Assembly: GCA_021325135.1 (NCBI GenBank)
Contig: JAJPHT010000029.1
Coordinates: 62,001-126,000, forward strand
From: Pseudomonadota bacterium
Lineage (GTDB): Archaea; Thermoplasmatota; SW-10-69-26; JACQPN01; JAJPHT01
Direction of reading: 5' to 3'
Length of the DNA: 64,000 bases
Shown: positions 54,479-63,206 of the stretch, one piece after another
Layout of the letters: the number at the start of each line of letters is the position of its first letter
Position numbering within the stretch: the stretch's first letter is position 1
Program-made: the position numbers and the translations under genes
The notes under the pieces: model-generated
What the model was told of the DNA's origin: nothing
Database searches by the model: none
What the model saw: the letters and a program-made list of their open reading frames with translations, nothing else

Positions 54479-55024
54479 ATGGCGAAGATCAAGATCGAGA
54501 ACGTCGTCGCGTCGACCTCCATCGGCACCGAGCTGGACCTCCAGTCCATCGCCCTCGCCCTCGACAACGCGGAGTACGAGCCCGAGCAGTTCCCCGGCCT
54601 CGTCTGCCGTCTCAAGGACCCCAAGACGGCGGCGCTCCTCTTCCGCAGCGGCAAGGTCGTCTGCACCGGCGCGAAGTCCATCGACGCCGTGGGCAAGGCC
54701 GTGGACATCGTGACGGCCAAGATCGAGGCCAGCGGCGTGAAGGTCGACCGCAACCCGGAGATCACCGTCCAGAACATCGTCGCCTCGGCCGACCTGCACT
54801 CGGAGTTGAACCTCAACGCCATCGCCATCGGCTTGGGCCTGGAGAAGGTCGAGTACGAGCCCGAGCAGTTCCCCGGCCTCGTCTACCGCCTGGACGACCC
54901 CAAGGTCGTGGTCCTCCTCTTCGGCAGCGGCAAGCTCGTCTGCACGGGCGCCCGCAAGCCCGAGGACGCCGAGCGCGCCGTCGACAAGATCACCGAGGAG
55001 CTTCAGGCCCTCGGCCTGCTCTAA
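54479..55024 (+). CDS. tbp: TATA-box-binding protein
   Basis: Two direct repeats: IVASTSIGTELDLQSIALALDNAEYEPEQFPGLVCRLKDPKTAALLFRSGKVVCTGAKS and its second half-repeat. Confidence 0.97.
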   Translation: MAKIKIENVVASTSIGTELDLQSIALALDNAEYEPEQFPGLVCRLKDPKTAALLFRSGKVVCTGAKSIDAVGKAVDIVTAKIEASGVKVDRNPEITVQNIVASADLHSELNLNAIAIGLGLEKVEYEPEQFPGLVYRLDDPKVVVLLFGSGKLVCTGARKPEDAERAVDKITEELQALGLL

Positions 55025-55646: not shown

Positions 55647-57011
55647 ATGCGCGCCCTGCTCCTTCTCGTGATCCTCCTGGCCTCCGGCTGCGTCGCGCCT
55701 GCGGTCCACCCGGAGGAGAGGCCCGCGGGCTTCGCCACCCTCGCGGGGGTCGCAGGGCCGGTGAGCCTGGGGCCGCAAGCGGGGCACGCCATGGAGCCCT
55801 CCCTGGCGATGCGCGGCGACGCCATCGTGATCGCGGCGCACACGGAGATGCCTGGCACGGAGCCCGGCCAGGCGCGCGTGTTCGCCATCGTCGTCCACCG
55901 CTCCACCGACGGGGGCGCCACCTGGTCCTCCGCGCCCCTTCCCCGCGACGTGACCTCCCCCTTCGACCCGCTGGGCCGCATGCGCTACAGCGGCGACTCG
56001 GTCCTCGCCTTCGCCCCCTCGGGCGCGCTCTACCTGGCGGGCGTCGCGCTGGACGGCGTGGGCGACGCCGCGGTCCTGGGCCAGAACACCGACTTCACCG
56101 TCTTCGTCACGCGCTCCGACGACCAGGGCGCGACGTGGTCGCCCGCCGTGTTCCACGTCCGCGGCGCGGGCCCCGCCCTCGCGCTGGCCCAGGACAAGCC
56201 GTGGCTCAGCGTCGACCCCGAGGGCTCGCTGCGCCTGGTGTGGACCGAGTTCGTGCAGTCGCTCACCCTCATCCAGTACGCTCGCTCGGACGACGGCGGG
56301 GCCACGTGGAGCGCGCCGCGCACGCTGGCCCTCAACTCGGCCCAGGAGATGAACCAGGTCACCGGCGCCACCCTCGCGACGCCCGGCGGCGGGCGCGTCT
56401 ACCTCTCCTACACCGACATCCGCAACGAGCCGTGGCCCCCCACCGCGCCCGTCGCGAGCCGGCAGCTGGCCTTCTGGAGCGCAGACGGCGGCGCCACCTT
56501 CCAGGGGCCCCTCGTGGTGGGCCCCTCGGTCTTCCCGCGCTTCGGGCGCGTCGTCGCGGACCCGCGCGATCCCCTGCACGCCGCGGTGCTGGCCTCCGAC
56601 GACGCGGCCCAGCCCCGCGTGTACCTCCGCGAGACGCGCGACGGCGGCGCCTCGTGGGGCCCGCGCCTGGACCTCGCGCCGCAGCGCGCGGGCGCGCAGC
56701 AGCTTCCCACCGGCTGGTTCGGCCCCGACGGGAGGCTCCACGTCGCGTACTACGACGCGGGCTGGCCCGGCGGCGAGCGCGTCGTGCTGGACACGCTGGA
56801 GGGCGGCGCCCTCGTCGCGGAGCAGCCCGCGCCCGGCCCGTCCATCGCGCCCGGGCCGTACCGCCGCGAATACTTCGGCCTCGACGGAGAGGGCTCCCGC
56901 GTCTGGGCCGCCTGGGTCGCGGGCGACGGCGGCACGGGCGACTCCGTGGCGGTGCTCACCGGGACCGATGGCACGGGGACCTACGTCGCGGCGGCGCCGT
57001 TCGACGTCTGA
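55647..57011 (+). CDS. Sialidase-like (BNR/Asp-box) beta-propeller lipoprotein, second copy
   Basis: Lipobox LASGCVAPA; STDGGATWSS, SDDQGATWSP, SDDGGATWSA, TRDGGASWGP. Confidence 0.8.
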   Translation: MRALLLLVILLASGCVAPAVHPEERPAGFATLAGVAGPVSLGPQAGHAMEPSLAMRGDAIVIAAHTEMPGTEPGQARVFAIVVHRSTDGGATWSSAPLPRDVTSPFDPLGRMRYSGDSVLAFAPSGALYLAGVALDGVGDAAVLGQNTDFTVFVTRSDDQGATWSPAVFHVRGAGPALALAQDKPWLSVDPEGSLRLVWTEFVQSLTLIQYARSDDGGATWSAPRTLALNSAQEMNQVTGATLATPGGGRVYLSYTDIRNEPWPPTAPVASRQLAFWSADGGATFQGPLVVGPSVFPRFGRVVADPRDPLHAAVLASDDAAQPRVYLRETRDGGASWGPRLDLAPQRAGAQQLPTGWFGPDGRLHVAYYDAGWPGGERVVLDTLEGGALVAEQPAPGPSIAPGPYRREYFGLDGEGSRVWAAWVAGDGGTGDSVAVLTGTDGTGTYVAAAPFDV

Positions 57012-57967
57012 TCGCAAGCGCAGGCCGCCGCGCGGCGCATGCGGCGGGCGCGCGGGATCGCGGAGGCGAGGGCGAGGACCAGCGCGGCAGCCAGGGCGGC
57101 CGTCCGCATGCGCGGGTCCCACGGCGCCGCGCGCACGCCCTGCACCACGAGCGCGAGCCCGAGGCCCAGGAGCGTCTTCACCGTCGCCTTCATCCAGCGG
57201 CGGCGCGCGAGGCCCAGGCTGGAGACGGCCTGCGCGCCCGCGGCGAGAAGGCCCAGCCCCAGCGCGGCGGCCCACGGCAGGGGTGCCATCAAAAGCGCCG
57301 CCATGGCGAGGAGGAAGACGGGGAACGTCGTGAAGCACCCCACGCAGAGCCGCAGGCCATTGATCCGGTAGACGTCCTTGCGGTACGCCTCGGTGTCGGG
57401 GTGGTGCGCGAAGACCTGGGGCAGCGCCAGGGGTGCGGCCTTGGAGGCCAAGGGGAGGAGGGCCAGCGCGGCGCACCCGCAGCCGCCGCACCCTCCGCAA
57501 CCCCCGCAGCCGCAGTCGCACGCGCCGCAGCTTCCGCAGCCGCACGGGTCGCCCCCGCCGCACGGGTGGCAGCAGGGGGAGCACGGGTCGCAGCACGAGG
57601 AGGGGCAGCAACACCCGCCCCCTCCGTTGTTGCACGTGCACGCGGGGCCGCTGCTGGCGGGGACGGGGCGCATGGCGGTGAAGAAGAGGATGAGGAGCAC
57701 CAGCAGCACGAGGACGCCCGACGCGTAGACCAGCGCGACGAGGAGCGTCGCCACGAGGGCGGTCTGCCCCGCGAGGACGGCCGCCACGGCGAGGTTCCCC
57801 TGCCGCTCGTGAAGGCCCAGGCCGAGGGCTGCCGCGCCGAAGACCAGGGAGAGGAAGAAGACCGCGGGGTCGGGGGTCACGAGGAAGCCCGCGAGGAAGC
57901 TCACCCACGCCAGCGCGCCCAGGACCAGGGCCGCGATGGCCTTCCCTGATGGAGCCTCCTCCGGCAC
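56981..57967 (-). CDS. Multi-pass membrane protein with internal Cys/Gly-rich segment
   Basis: TM segments flank CTCNNGGGGCCCPSSCCDPCSPCCHPCGGGDPCGCGSCGACDCGCGGCGGCGGCGC; C-terminal part has NGLRLCVGCFTTFPVFLL. Confidence 0.7.
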   Translation of the reverse strand: MPEEAPSGKAIAALVLGALAWVSFLAGFLVTPDPAVFFLSLVFGAAALGLGLHERQGNLAVAAVLAGQTALVATLLVALVYASGVLVLLVLLILFFTAMRPVPASSGPACTCNNGGGGCCCPSSCCDPCSPCCHPCGGGDPCGCGSCGACDCGCGGCGGCGGCGCAALALLPLASKAAPLALPQVFAHHPDTEAYRKDVYRINGLRLCVGCFTTFPVFLLAMAALLMAPLPWAAALGLGLLAAGAQAVSSLGLARRRWMKATVKTLLGLGLALVVQGVRAAPWDPRMRTAALAAALVLALASAIPRARRMRRAAACACDQTSNGAAAT

Positions 57968-58045: not shown

Positions 58046-58987
58046 GTGTCCGCCATCGTCGCGACAAGCCTGCGCAAGTCCTACGGCGAGGTGCGCGCCG
58101 TGGAGGACGTCTCGCTGGACGTGGCGGAGGGGGAGATCTTCGGCCTCCTGGGCCCCAACGGCGCGGGCAAGACGACGACGGTCCGCATGCTGGCGACGCT
58201 GCTCCGCCCCGACGCGGGCGAGGTGCGCATCCTGGGCCTCGACCCCGCGCGCGACCGCGTCGCCGTGCGGCGGCTCATGGGCATCGCGCTCCAGGAGACG
58301 GGCCTCGACGACCTCGCCACGGGCCGCGAGCTGCTCACCCTCCACGCGCGCCTCTATGGCCTCCCCCGCGCGCGGGCCCGCGAGCGCGCCCAGGAGCTTC
58401 TCGCGCACTTCGGCCTGGAGGAGGCGGCGGACCGCCGCGTCGGGGAATATTCCGGCGGCATGCGGCGGCGCATCGACCTCGCCAGCGCGCTCGTCCACTC
58501 GCCCAAGGTCGTCTTCCTCGACGAGCCCACCGTGGGCCTGGACCCCGCCGCCCGGGCGCAGCTCTGGGGCGCGGTGCGGCGCCTCAACCGCGAGGAGGGC
58601 ACCACCATCCTGCTGACGACGCACTACATGGAGGAGGCCGAGCGCCTCGCGGGGCGGCTGGCCGTCATCGACCGCGGCCGCGTCGTCATGGAGGGCACCG
58701 CAGCGCAATTGAAGGCTCGCGTGGCGAAGCGCGTCGTCACGCTGGCCTTGGACGACGAGGAGGGGGACTTCCCTCGGGTGGCCCGCGCCCTCGCGGCGAT
58801 GCCCGGCGTCCTGCGCGCGCTCCCCACGCCCGAAGGCGTCGTCGTCCACGTGGGCGAAGGCGGCCCCCGCGCCGACGAGGTGCGCGCCGTGGCCGAGAAG
58901 GAGGCGCGCGTCGTGGGCGCCACCTCCAACGACCCCACGCTGGACGACCTCTTCCTCACCACCGGCCGAAAGGAGGGATCGCAATGA
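58046..58987 (+). CDS. ABC transporter ATP-binding protein (DrrA-like)
   Basis: LLGPNGAGKTTTVRMLATLLRPDAGEVRILG; YSGGMRRRIDLASALVHSPKVVFLDEPTVGLDP. Confidence 0.93.
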   Translation: MSAIVATSLRKSYGEVRAVEDVSLDVAEGEIFGLLGPNGAGKTTTVRMLATLLRPDAGEVRILGLDPARDRVAVRRLMGIALQETGLDDLATGRELLTLHARLYGLPRARARERAQELLAHFGLEEAADRRVGEYSGGMRRRIDLASALVHSPKVVFLDEPTVGLDPAARAQLWGAVRRLNREEGTTILLTTHYMEEAERLAGRLAVIDRGRVVMEGTAAQLKARVAKRVVTLALDDEEGDFPRVARALAAMPGVLRALPTPEGVVVHVGEGGPRADEVRAVAEKEARVVGATSNDPTLDDLFLTTGRKEGSQ

Positions 58988-59751
58988 GCTTCCTCACCGC
59001 GACCGACGAATTGCTTCGCAAGACGCTGCGCCAGTTCCCTCGCGTGCCCCCTGATATCGTCCAAGCCCTCGCGATCCCGCTCTTCCTCTTCGCGCTCTTC
59101 TCGCTCCAGATGGCGGCCGTCTCGCGCCTGCCCGGGTTCCCGACGGAGAATTACGCGCAGTTCCTCCTGCCGCAGATCATCGTCTTCACGGCGTTCACCA
59201 GCGCGAACGGCGCGGGGTACGGCCTGGTGCTGGAGGCCAAGAGCGGGTATCTCGACAAGCTGCGCGCGATGCCCATCCCGAGGGCGAGCATCGTGCTGGG
59301 GCGCCTCCTCGCGGTGGGCCTGCGCGCCATGGCGCAGGCGCTTCTCGTGCTCGCCGTGGCGTTCCCCTTCGGCATCCGCGTCGCGGGCGGCGTCCTCGGC
59401 GTCGTGGGCATCCTGCTCCTCGCCGCGTGCGTGGCCATCGCGTGGGCGGGCATCATGTCCATGCTGGGCCTCCTCACGCGAAGCCCCGAGGCGGTGGAGG
59501 CCTCGACCGTGCTCTTCATCCCGCTCACGTACCTCACCACCGGCGCCATGCCCCTGGCGCTCATGAGCCCCGCCGTGCAGGGCGTCGTGCGCGCGAACCC
59601 CGTGACCTACGTCGTGGAGGGCATCCGCGCGTTCAGCCTTGACGCGGGCCTTTCCGTGGTGCACCTGGAGGCCTTCGCGTCGGGGCTCGCCATGGCGCTC
59701 GTGGGCGTCGCGCTCGCGACGTGGGCGATGCGGCGGCTCGACACGCGCTGA
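58984..59751 (+). CDS. ABC-2 type permease (DrrB-like)
   Basis: ATGA overlap with ATPase; six hydrophobic segments; LTTGAMPLALMSPAVQGVVRANPVTYVVEGIRAF. Confidence 0.9.
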   Translation: MSFLTATDELLRKTLRQFPRVPPDIVQALAIPLFLFALFSLQMAAVSRLPGFPTENYAQFLLPQIIVFTAFTSANGAGYGLVLEAKSGYLDKLRAMPIPRASIVLGRLLAVGLRAMAQALLVLAVAFPFGIRVAGGVLGVVGILLLAACVAIAWAGIMSMLGLLTRSPEAVEASTVLFIPLTYLTTGAMPLALMSPAVQGVVRANPVTYVVEGIRAFSLDAGLSVVHLEAFASGLAMALVGVALATWAMRRLDTR

Positions 59752-59881
59752 GCATGGGGACGGCGGAGCGTGGACTGTTCCTCCGCGCGGGCCCGCGGCC
59801 TCCGAGGGGAAACATATCACACGCGTGCAGAATCATTAAACCAGTTAGCGCCATTGGGTGCCGCGCCTGCGAGATGATATC

Positions 59882-60640
59882 ATGCGCGCCGACGACCTCC
59901 TCGTTCTCGACTACGCCGGCTTTTCCCGCCACACGGCCCTGTTCTACAAGAAGCTGGAGGCGGCGTCGTTCCGGGAGCTCTTCGTCCGCGACCCGGCGGG
60001 CGTCCTCTTCGACTCCCTCTTCCCCGGCTACAAGAGCCCGACCCCTGGGAAGATCAACCAGGCCAACCGCATGCTCTTCTCCCTCCTGAGCAACCCGAAG
60101 TTCATGGACTGGAGCAAGGGCTTCCAGAAGAAGCTCGAAGAGACGGCCCAGCGCGCCGCGCCGCAGGAGAAGCCCGGCGAGGCCATCAAGCTCTACACGG
60201 TCCAGGTGGACCGCGCCAAGCTCTACCAGGAGATCCTGGAGGCGACGCGGAGCTTCGCCGACGTGGAGTTCTTCCACTCGGCGTTCATCGCCGACCCCGA
60301 CGACAACCCGTGCGGGACCGTCCCCCGCCCCATCCCTCTCCCCAACCCGCCTCAGCCCCCCGTCCCGTGGCCGGACATCTCGATCATGCCGCGCTTCGGA
60401 GGCAACGAGGACGTCGCCGTGGAGGTCGAGACCCTGATCTACGCCGTCGCGGTGGCGGCGGTGGCCGTCGTGGTCACCGTCGTGGCCGTCGCCGGCATGC
60501 CCGCGGTCGAGATCCTCTCGCGCCAGGACCTTGCCAAGGTCACCGGGATCGCCGCAGAGCACCTGCAGGCGCGCGCCCAAGGCCTGCGCGAGTCGGGCAA
60601 GCTGACGTCCCACGAGGCGATCCGCGGCCGCCTGATGTGA
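59882..60640 (+). CDS. RiPP-precursor-like protein: leader-like N-terminus, Pro-rich segment, Val/Ala-rich segment
   Basis: FRELFVRDPAGVLFDSL leader-like motif; CGTVPRPIPLPNPPQPPVPWPD; VAVEVETLIYAVAVAAVAVVVTVVAVAG; 4 nt before the radical SAM start. GTG at 59858 is an alternative start. Confidence 0.5.
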   Translation: MRADDLLVLDYAGFSRHTALFYKKLEAASFRELFVRDPAGVLFDSLFPGYKSPTPGKINQANRMLFSLLSNPKFMDWSKGFQKKLEETAQRAAPQEKPGEAIKLYTVQVDRAKLYQEILEATRSFADVEFFHSAFIADPDDNPCGTVPRPIPLPNPPQPPVPWPDISIMPRFGGNEDVAVEVETLIYAVAVAAVAVVVTVVAVAGMPAVEILSRQDLAKVTGIAAEHLQARAQGLRESGKLTSHEAIRGRLM

Positions 60641-60644
60641 GCCC

Positions 60645-61709
60645 ATGAGGATCTTCGATCCTCTTCCGGAGGGCCGGACGCTCTCGGTCATGCCGACCTT
60701 CCGATGCACCGCCGAGTGCGACCATTGCGGCACGTTGAGCAGCCCCCGGGAGAGCACCTGGCTCCCCCGGGACCTCATGCTGCGCGTCATCGGCGAGGCG
60801 GCGGACAACGGCTACAAGGTCGTGGTCTTCACCGGTGGCGAGCCCACGCTGGCGGGCGCGGACCTCCTGGAAGGCATCCGGCTCGCGAGGTCGCGTGGGC
60901 TCGTGGCGCGCATGGTGACCAACGGGCACTGGGCCGTCCACGACGCCGCGGCGGACCGGAAGATCGGCGAGCTCGTGGACGCCGGCCTCAACGAGATCAA
61001 CTTCAGCACCGGCGACCAGCACGCGCGCTTCGTCCCCATGGAGCGCGTGCTCCGGGGCGCAAGGGCCGCCGCGAAGGCGGGCCTCACCATCGCGATCATG
61101 GTGGAGACGGTCAACGAGCGCCGGATCACCAAGGAGACGGTGGAGAAGCACCCCGAGTTCCAGCGCCTCCTGGAGGAGCACCCCGACGCGCGGCTGAGGC
61201 TCCACGAGAGCCCCTGGATGCCGCTGATCCCCTCCAAGGTCTTCCGCTACCCCGAAGGCCTCGCCATCAACCGGGCGAACCTCGCGTGGCGCGCCGGGTG
61301 CGACAGCGTCCTGGGCACGACGACGCTCCAGGCCAACGGCAACCTGGGCGCGTGCTGCGGCATCGGGATGAAGAACGTCCCCGAGCTGAGCCTGGGGAAC
61401 GCCCGCGACGTGCCCCTCGCCGAGGCCGACGCCAAGGCGGGGGACGACTTCCTGAAGCGGTGGATCCGCGTCGAAGGTCCCGAGAAGATCCTCGACTGGG
61501 CCTCCCGCCACGACCCCTCCATCCAGTGGGAGGACATGTACGCCCACCGCTGCCAGGCGTGCATCCGCCTCTACACGGACCCCGCCGTGCGACGGGTGAT
61601 CCGCGAGAAGCACCAGGAGAAGATGGCGGACGTCGTGTTCGGCGAGTGGCTCCTCTTCAAGTTCCAGGGCGCGGACGACCCCGTCGTCGCCGCGCCCCCG
61701 GAGCCGTAG
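60645..61709 (+). CDS. Radical SAM protein with C-terminal auxiliary Cys motifs (SPASM/Twitch-like)
   Basis: TFRCTAECDHCGT (CxxxCxxC); VVVFTGGEPTLAG; C-terminal Cys set GCDSVLGTTTLQANGNLGACCGIG ... HRCQACIRLY. Confidence 0.88.
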   Translation: MRIFDPLPEGRTLSVMPTFRCTAECDHCGTLSSPRESTWLPRDLMLRVIGEAADNGYKVVVFTGGEPTLAGADLLEGIRLARSRGLVARMVTNGHWAVHDAAADRKIGELVDAGLNEINFSTGDQHARFVPMERVLRGARAAAKAGLTIAIMVETVNERRITKETVEKHPEFQRLLEEHPDARLRLHESPWMPLIPSKVFRYPEGLAINRANLAWRAGCDSVLGTTTLQANGNLGACCGIGMKNVPELSLGNARDVPLAEADAKAGDDFLKRWIRVEGPEKILDWASRHDPSIQWEDMYAHRCQACIRLYTDPAVRRVIREKHQEKMADVVFGEWLLFKFQGADDPVVAAPPEP

Positions 61710-62761: not shown

Positions 62762-62840
62762 ACCCGTCCGCGCAGGCGCCCCCTTGCCGCCACCGAAGGT
62801 TGAAGCGCCACCCACGGCGTCCTGCCGCGGGCACACCCCC

Positions 62841-63206
62841 ATGCGCTCCACCACGATCCTTCTGGCCCTCTCCCTCGCCGCCACCTTCCTGGCCTTTGCC
62901 GCCCCCGCCGACGCCTGCGCGGGCACCGCGTGCATCCCCGGCTGCACGCAGGACCGCTGCCCCCCCGGCTGCGGCGACAACATCGGCTGCTGCCAGCCCG
63001 GCAGCAGCATCGTGGAATGCTTCGTCCCCCACTGCACGCAGACCTTCTGCATCGACCTCCCGCCCGTGCCCCCCTGCGTGCGCCCGGACTGCATCCCCAC
63101 CTGCTACGGCCCCCTGTGCATCAACGACTGCACCTACCTCCTGGGCTGCCCCCCGAACCTGTGGTGCAACAACCTCTACTGCTACACGCCCCCGCCCCTG
63201 GCGTGA
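62841..63206 (+). CDS. Small Cys-rich secreted protein (18 Cys)
   Basis: Signal peptide MRSTTILLALSLAATFLAFAAPADA; repeated Cys-X3-5-Cys spacing throughout mature part. Confidence 0.65.
   Translation: MRSTTILLALSLAATFLAFAAPADACAGTACIPGCTQDRCPPGCGDNIGCCQPGSSIVECFVPHCTQTFCIDLPPVPPCVRPDCIPTCYGPLCINDCTYLLGCPPNLWCNNLYCYTPPPLA

Follow-up and report, generated by a model that had tools for sequence, protein, structure and literature searches.

Two adjacent genes, A and B, form the locus described here. They lie on the forward strand of a window of 64,000 nucleotides, the window being the whole stretch of DNA that was analysed. The features of the two genes and of their surroundings are as follows.

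54479-55024: TBP gene (TATA-binding protein; Pfam TBP, 5e-64)
58046-59751, + strand: gene pair of ABC-2 type, next to A on its 5' side, with the ATPase at 58046-58987 and the permease at 58984-59751 (Pfam ABC_tran)
59831-59842, + strand: candidate archaeal TATA box AATCATTAAACC, AT-rich, about 40-50 nt 5' of the A start codon (from the sequence)
59882-60640, + strand: A, precursor-like protein of 252 aa, without a Pfam or NCBIfam family
59969-60019, + strand: leader motif FRELFVRDPAGVLFDSL in A, of the F-x2-[DNQ]P-x3-L type, seen in 10 of the 14 precursors that adjoin an EpeE-like enzyme
60311-60376, + strand: Pro-rich linker CGTVPRPIPLPNPPQPPVPWPD of A, unconserved in homologues
60410-60502, + strand: putative core DVAVEVETLIYAVAVAAVAVVVTVVAVAGMP of A, without Cys, the best-conserved part in three close homologues
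60503-60637, + strand: helical C-terminal tail of A, after the core
60645-61709, + strand: B, radical SAM enzyme of EpeE/YydG (peptide epimerase) type, 354 aa
60705-60728, + strand: CTAECDHC, radical SAM [4Fe-4S] motif of B (C21, C25, C28)
61299-61301, + strand: C219, probable auxiliary-cluster ligand, invariant in 16 homologues and YydG
61353-61358, + strand: C237-C238, of which C238 is aligned with EpeE C223
61551-61562, + strand: C303-x2-C306, probable auxiliary-cluster ligands

Gene layout and host

Gene A runs from an ATG at 59882 to a TGA stop at 60638-60640 and is separated from the ATG of B at 60645 by a 4-nt spacer, GCCC, exactly as the original prediction had described the two reading frames. 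An alternative GTG start, 24 nt upstream, would give a protein of 260 aa; the ATG at 59882 is preferred, since the Ignavibacteriae and Streptomyces homologues begin at this point of the alignment. The GC content by codon position (0.68/0.42/0.95, frame from 59858) is coding-like, and two further phyla have homologues of A, in both cases next to a homologue of B; A is thus a genuine gene. The spacer before A has a GC content of 0.63 vs 0.73 for the window, and along with AATCATTAAACC it fits an archaeal TATA box. The AT-rich sequence proposed earlier near 59831 is indeed present; its role as a promoter is putative.

The TBP gene in the window marks the host as an archaeon. A search of the host genome for an archaeal SSU gene was negative, the gene being probably absent from the assembly, so the assignment of the domain rests on the TBP gene. 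Two Cys-rich proteins without a Pfam match are also encoded near the pair, one at 56981-57967 (- strand), in which membrane segments precede dense GG/Cys clusters, and the other at 62784-63206 (+ strand).

The enzyme and its partner protein

Profile and AlphaFold comparison, a check of the sort that had been proposed for both proteins, places EpeE/YydG of B. subtilis, a radical SAM enzyme that epimerises peptides, as the closest solved relative of B by sequence and by fold, and this assignment is well supported. When a three-sequence profile of B was compared with the PDB, the top matches were all YydG (2.6e-23 over residues 10-315), and the next family followed at 4e-7. The model of B, folded from a five-row alignment, has a pLDDT of 75 and a pTM of 0.78. 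Its top nine rows in Foldseek are all EpeE (E 6e-14 to 4e-13; TM 0.70-0.73 by target), and other radical SAM enzymes follow from 1e-9. Among NCBIfam models, the best match is TIGR04078 (YydG family peptide epimerase; 6.8e-16), which covers only residues 12-138 and scores 58.6 bits vs an equivalog cutoff of 300. Pfam weakly detects a SPASM-like C-terminal region. Because B shares only about 17% identity with EpeE over the structural alignment, and the score with the YydG model lies far below its cutoff, the reaction of B could differ.

The CxxxCxxC motif and the further C-terminal cysteines noticed originally were confirmed as C21/C25/C28 and C219, C237, C238, C303 and C306. All eight coincide with those of an annotated YydG on a Macrococcus plasmid, and 16 homologues all share the five at the C-terminal end; the only gaps are the three N-terminal cysteines of a Collinsella reading frame as annotated. 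In the EpeE structures, C238 corresponds to residue 248 of the chain, which we infer from the chain length and the names of the C223A mutant entries to be C223, if a 25-residue tag is present. C223 is the proposed thiol H-atom donor of EpeE (PMC8326336). The EpeE residue D210 is unconserved, being T225 in B and E in the Macrococcus YydG.

Protein A is laid out as a helical leader domain, a variable Pro-rich linker, a hydrophobic core and a helical tail. It has no match in Pfam, and one irrelevant match in NCBIfam (E 0.21). The Pro-rich segment and the Val/Ala segment (60413-60496) lie precisely where they had been placed, the latter overlapping the best-conserved stretch of the protein; the leader-like motif is present too, but FRELFVRDPAGVLFDSL begins at 59969, one codon after the 59966 given earlier. 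Residues 176-207 make up the best-conserved 32-residue stretch, with 14 of the 32 identical in all three close homologues, a degree of conservation equalled in 312 of 20,000 column shuffles. This stretch is the Val/Ala segment singled out originally, DVAVEVETLIYAV..AA, and the shared core reads DVAV(E/D)(V/I)E.LIYAV..AA. The only cysteine of A, C144, is outside the core, and the close homologues have none.

Backbone or side-chain modification of the Val/Ala region had been suggested; this is supported, and it can now be refined, as an enzyme of EpeE/YydG type leads one to predict C-alpha epimerisation. If A and B are a RiPP pair, epimerisation is quite likely by analogy. Within a RiPP pair, B could also place a different radical modification on the aliphatic core, such as a cross-link or ether at Tyr187, a desaturation, or cyclopropylglycine made from beta-branched residues as in the TVG/TIG peptides. 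Repetitive precursors are known to serve a cyclopropylglycine-forming radical SAM enzyme (PMC9062424), LIYAV with its invariant Tyr is present in all three cores, and the SPASM-like region of B is in line with such chemistry. The hydrogen-donor cysteine of EpeE is nevertheless invariant among the B homologues, which makes another modification unlikely. TigE (8vpo) ranks only 29th in the fold search, at E 5.5e-6 vs 6e-14 for EpeE, and TigE-like cyclopropanation was rejected on this weaker match. Thioether bonds are unlikely, as the cores of the three close homologues are without Cys; membership of the sactipeptides or ranthipeptides was likewise rejected.

Recurrence and transfer of the pair

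Relatives of A were absent among 96 genomes of its own phylum, and close relatives of B were absent among 390 same-phylum genomes, where the next best had 29% identity. Most of the other same-phylum matches of B (L004-L012) were set aside as other radical SAM families, with neither the CC motif nor a precursor. In a same-phylum archaeon, G170 (L003:409-2814), genes for an ABC ATPase and a permease come after an EpeE-like radical SAM gene, and no precursor was seen on this short contig end.

A scan of 84,980 species turned up an uncultured Ignavibacteriae MAG (L013) with a B homologue of 57% identity over 341 aa, and the preceding gene there is a homologue of A, with 37% identity. By tblastn of plasmids, a B homologue of 58.6% identity was found on a linear Streptomyces canus plasmid; the sole A homologue among 72,556 plasmid records is on this same plasmid, immediately upstream of B. 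Identities across the two bacterial pairs are 57-59% for B and 33-37% for A. Scanning the 84,980 genomes with A only gave nothing, the query being short back-translated peptides, which miss relatives of 37% identity, and the phage collection gave no B relatives; all these sequence collections were sampled. In the tree, the B proteins of the window, Ignavibacteriae and Streptomyces group together with 100/100 support. Together with the scattered distribution, this grouping indicates horizontal transfer, by which the archaeon probably acquired the pair. Co-occurrence of the two families, on which the original prediction was to stand or fall, is thus borne out by adjacency in three phyla, and this supports its view of a candidate RiPP-like locus with a precursor and a radical SAM enzyme.

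Precursor-like reading frames also adjoin eleven more distant B relatives. Such neighbours are seen in Thermus (pTA14), Lactococcus, Enterococcus, the archaeon Halocatena, Klebsiella (pmk4) and Collinsella, and downstream of the enzyme in Eleftheria; further distant cassettes come from three genomes found by a search around the Ignavibacteriae genome, and from prophage-type contigs. The motif F/Y-x2-(D/N/Q)P-x3-(L/I/M/F) is carried by 10 of 14 precursors vs 0.5-4% per shuffled sequence, with the caveats that it was defined post hoc from these sequences and that the ten carriers include the three close homologues. Residues 28-74 of A can be aligned with the Thermus leader at 32% identity (E 0.006). 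The cores, on the other hand, vary from Val/Ala-rich to Asn-x-Asn repeats to polar. Such a pattern, in which the leader stays constant and the core varies next to a single family of enzymes, is a hallmark of RiPPs.

It had been allowed that the hydrophobic stretch might instead be a transmembrane helix. In that case, A would be a functional protein with a membrane-spanning or lipid-facing segment, B would modify mature A, and there would be no secreted peptide. The core is hydrophobic enough for this (Kyte-Doolittle mean 2.89 in a 19-residue window), and the structure model of A places a low-confidence helix at 177-204; the model, built from a two-row alignment, is poor (pLDDT 49) and was left out of the fold search. 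Against it, the cores of relatives that share the enzyme family and the leader motif are Asn-rich or polar, the Thermus core being Asn-x-Asn-rich with a hydrophobicity maximum of -0.24, which is a poor fit with a conserved transmembrane role. Moreover, A matches no membrane-protein family; such a match would have counted against a precursor role. A membrane protein is an improbable explanation of A.

The Thermus, Klebsiella and Collinsella cassettes have an extra methyltransferase. SdpI lies beside those of Thermus and Klebsiella, and a DUF1648 protein in Collinsella, whose precursor is DUF5969; such neighbours suggest toxin-immunity biology. A search of the host genome for SdpI found none. 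The plasmid cassettes with polytheonamide-like Asn-x-Asn repeats (Klebsiella, L043:2359-5578; Thermus, L016:2599-6074; Collinsella, L044:1912-5673) possibly make polytheonamide-like peptides with SDP-type immunity.

Several further loci were observed in the course of this survey. Another archaeal cassette lies on a plasmid of Halocatena salina (L020:3446-5047); its Val/Ala core is C-terminal, and its EpeE-like enzyme is on a different branch of the tree. An EpeE-like radical SAM gene is also present on the prophage-type contigs L047-L052. The precursor after this gene in L047, next to phage tail genes, starts with a twin-arginine-like sequence and has a Val/Ala core. At L031:498-1800, an apparently truncated EpeE-like gene near a transposase has a lipoprotein-like precursor with an Ala/Val/Asn core downstream.

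Proposed pathway and known systems

In our favoured reading, A and B are probably a minimal RiPP cassette of the epipeptide kind, in which A is a long-leader precursor, B epimerises its hydrophobic core, and the product is membrane-active. The pairing and the enzyme family are well supported, and the chemistry and activity are extrapolated from EpeE. The helical N-terminal domain of A, with its FRELFVRDPAGVL motif, would dock on B. The 5'-deoxyadenosyl radical of B would then remove hydrogen from C-alpha positions within the Val/Ala-rich core. C238 would return hydrogen from the opposite face, converting L- to D-residues; the mechanism of EpeE is described in PMC8326336. A peptidase may free the core of about 25-30 residues, which, once exported, would most likely act on the membranes of competitors or kin, like EPE. 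As EPE, an extracellular 17-mer, depolarises membranes (PMC12871923; PMC7026026), a membrane-active peptide is the natural guess here, and by this analogy we give membrane activity an even chance. More tentatively, iterative epimerisation of the Val/Ala core could give an archaeal D-residue peptide that forms a membrane-pore helix of alternating chirality, within a broad, horizontally mobile class of EpeE-type RiPPs with long leaders, spread over archaea and several bacterial phyla; we regard this as possible rather than probable.

No EpeP-like peptidase or known immunity gene was found adjacent to the pair. The unit might also take in the upstream ABC transporter as an exporter or immunity pump like EpeAB, which would be compatible with the epipeptide kind of pathway, though it appears rather doubtful. 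The ATPase and permease end 130 nt upstream of A on the same strand; an ABC pair is part of true yyd/epe operons (Macrococcus, L061) and follows the B relative in archaeon G170. However, the same-family genome G001, in which A is absent, has orthologues of both genes (70% and 53-57%), and no ABC pair adjoins the Ignavibacteriae or Streptomyces loci. The pair in the window looks vertically inherited, so that its link to A and B is unproven, although they may have recruited it; with orthologues vertical in G001, the transporter was ruled out as a diagnostic partner.

The open-access literature that was searched, in which epipeptides are described from Firmicutes and RiPPs with D-residues from bacteria, yielded neither an archaeal epipeptide or D-residue RiPP nor a biochemical test of this subfamily. 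If confirmed, the locus would provide a D-residue peptide of archaeal origin that serves as an antibiotic or signal. Its long aliphatic core would be a new class of substrate for EpeE-type enzymes, and the two genes would be a simple cassette with which to put D-amino acids into peptides.

Among known systems, the epipeptide operon (yydFGHIJ, or epeXEPAB) resembles the pair in having the precursor directly upstream of the radical SAM enzyme, in an enzyme with the same fold, eight cysteines and hydrogen-donor cysteine (EpeE C223, B C238), and in core Val as the likely target. The EpeX precursor is about 50 aa long (51 aa for the Macrococcus YydF, L061), whereas A has 252 aa and no YydF-type family match; the EpeX 17-mer is unlike the core of A, which is internal, about 25-30 residues long and Val/Ala-rich; and the epe operon has the EpeP peptidase, which does not adjoin A and B. 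The published study of epipeptide distribution (Popp 2021, cited in PMC8326336) is, by its title, concerned with Firmicutes, and the present host is an archaeon.

Like A, proteusins (polytheonamide; the PoyD/OspD/AvpD epimerases) have a long leader that contains an F..DP..L-like motif; Val/Ala/Asn-rich cores and, as predicted for B, radical SAM epimerisation are further points in common. The NHLP likeness first proposed holds as a weak resemblance: A has no NHLP match at E<=1 in the NCBIfam/Pfam models, and the S. canus homologue matches TIGR04509 ('NHLP-related RiPP peptide') at E 0.0012 with 18.8 bits against a cutoff of 34. PoyD-type epimerases have a single cluster, whereas B is EpeE-like with five conserved C-terminal cysteines. 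On these features, the pair belongs with the epipeptide kind and not with the proteusins.

The TVG/TIG poly-cyclopropylglycine RiPPs also combine an aliphatic core with a radical SAM enzyme, but their core is repetitive, A has no repeat motif, and their enzyme is far less similar to B than EpeE is. A has the same architecture as SdpC, the precursor of the SDP cannibalism toxin (SdpC/SdpI), in which a hydrophobic peptide lies inside a long pro-protein and is followed by a C-terminal tail; SdpI genes lie beside the related Thermus and Klebsiella cassettes. No radical SAM enzyme is known to take part in making SDP. The SdpC model reaches only E of about 0.2 in three relatives, probably for compositional reasons, and does not match A, and the host is without SdpI; SdpC membership was rejected. 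The related cassettes, with their SdpI genes and Asn-x-Asn cores, tie epipeptide enzymes to peptides of both the SDP and polytheonamide types.
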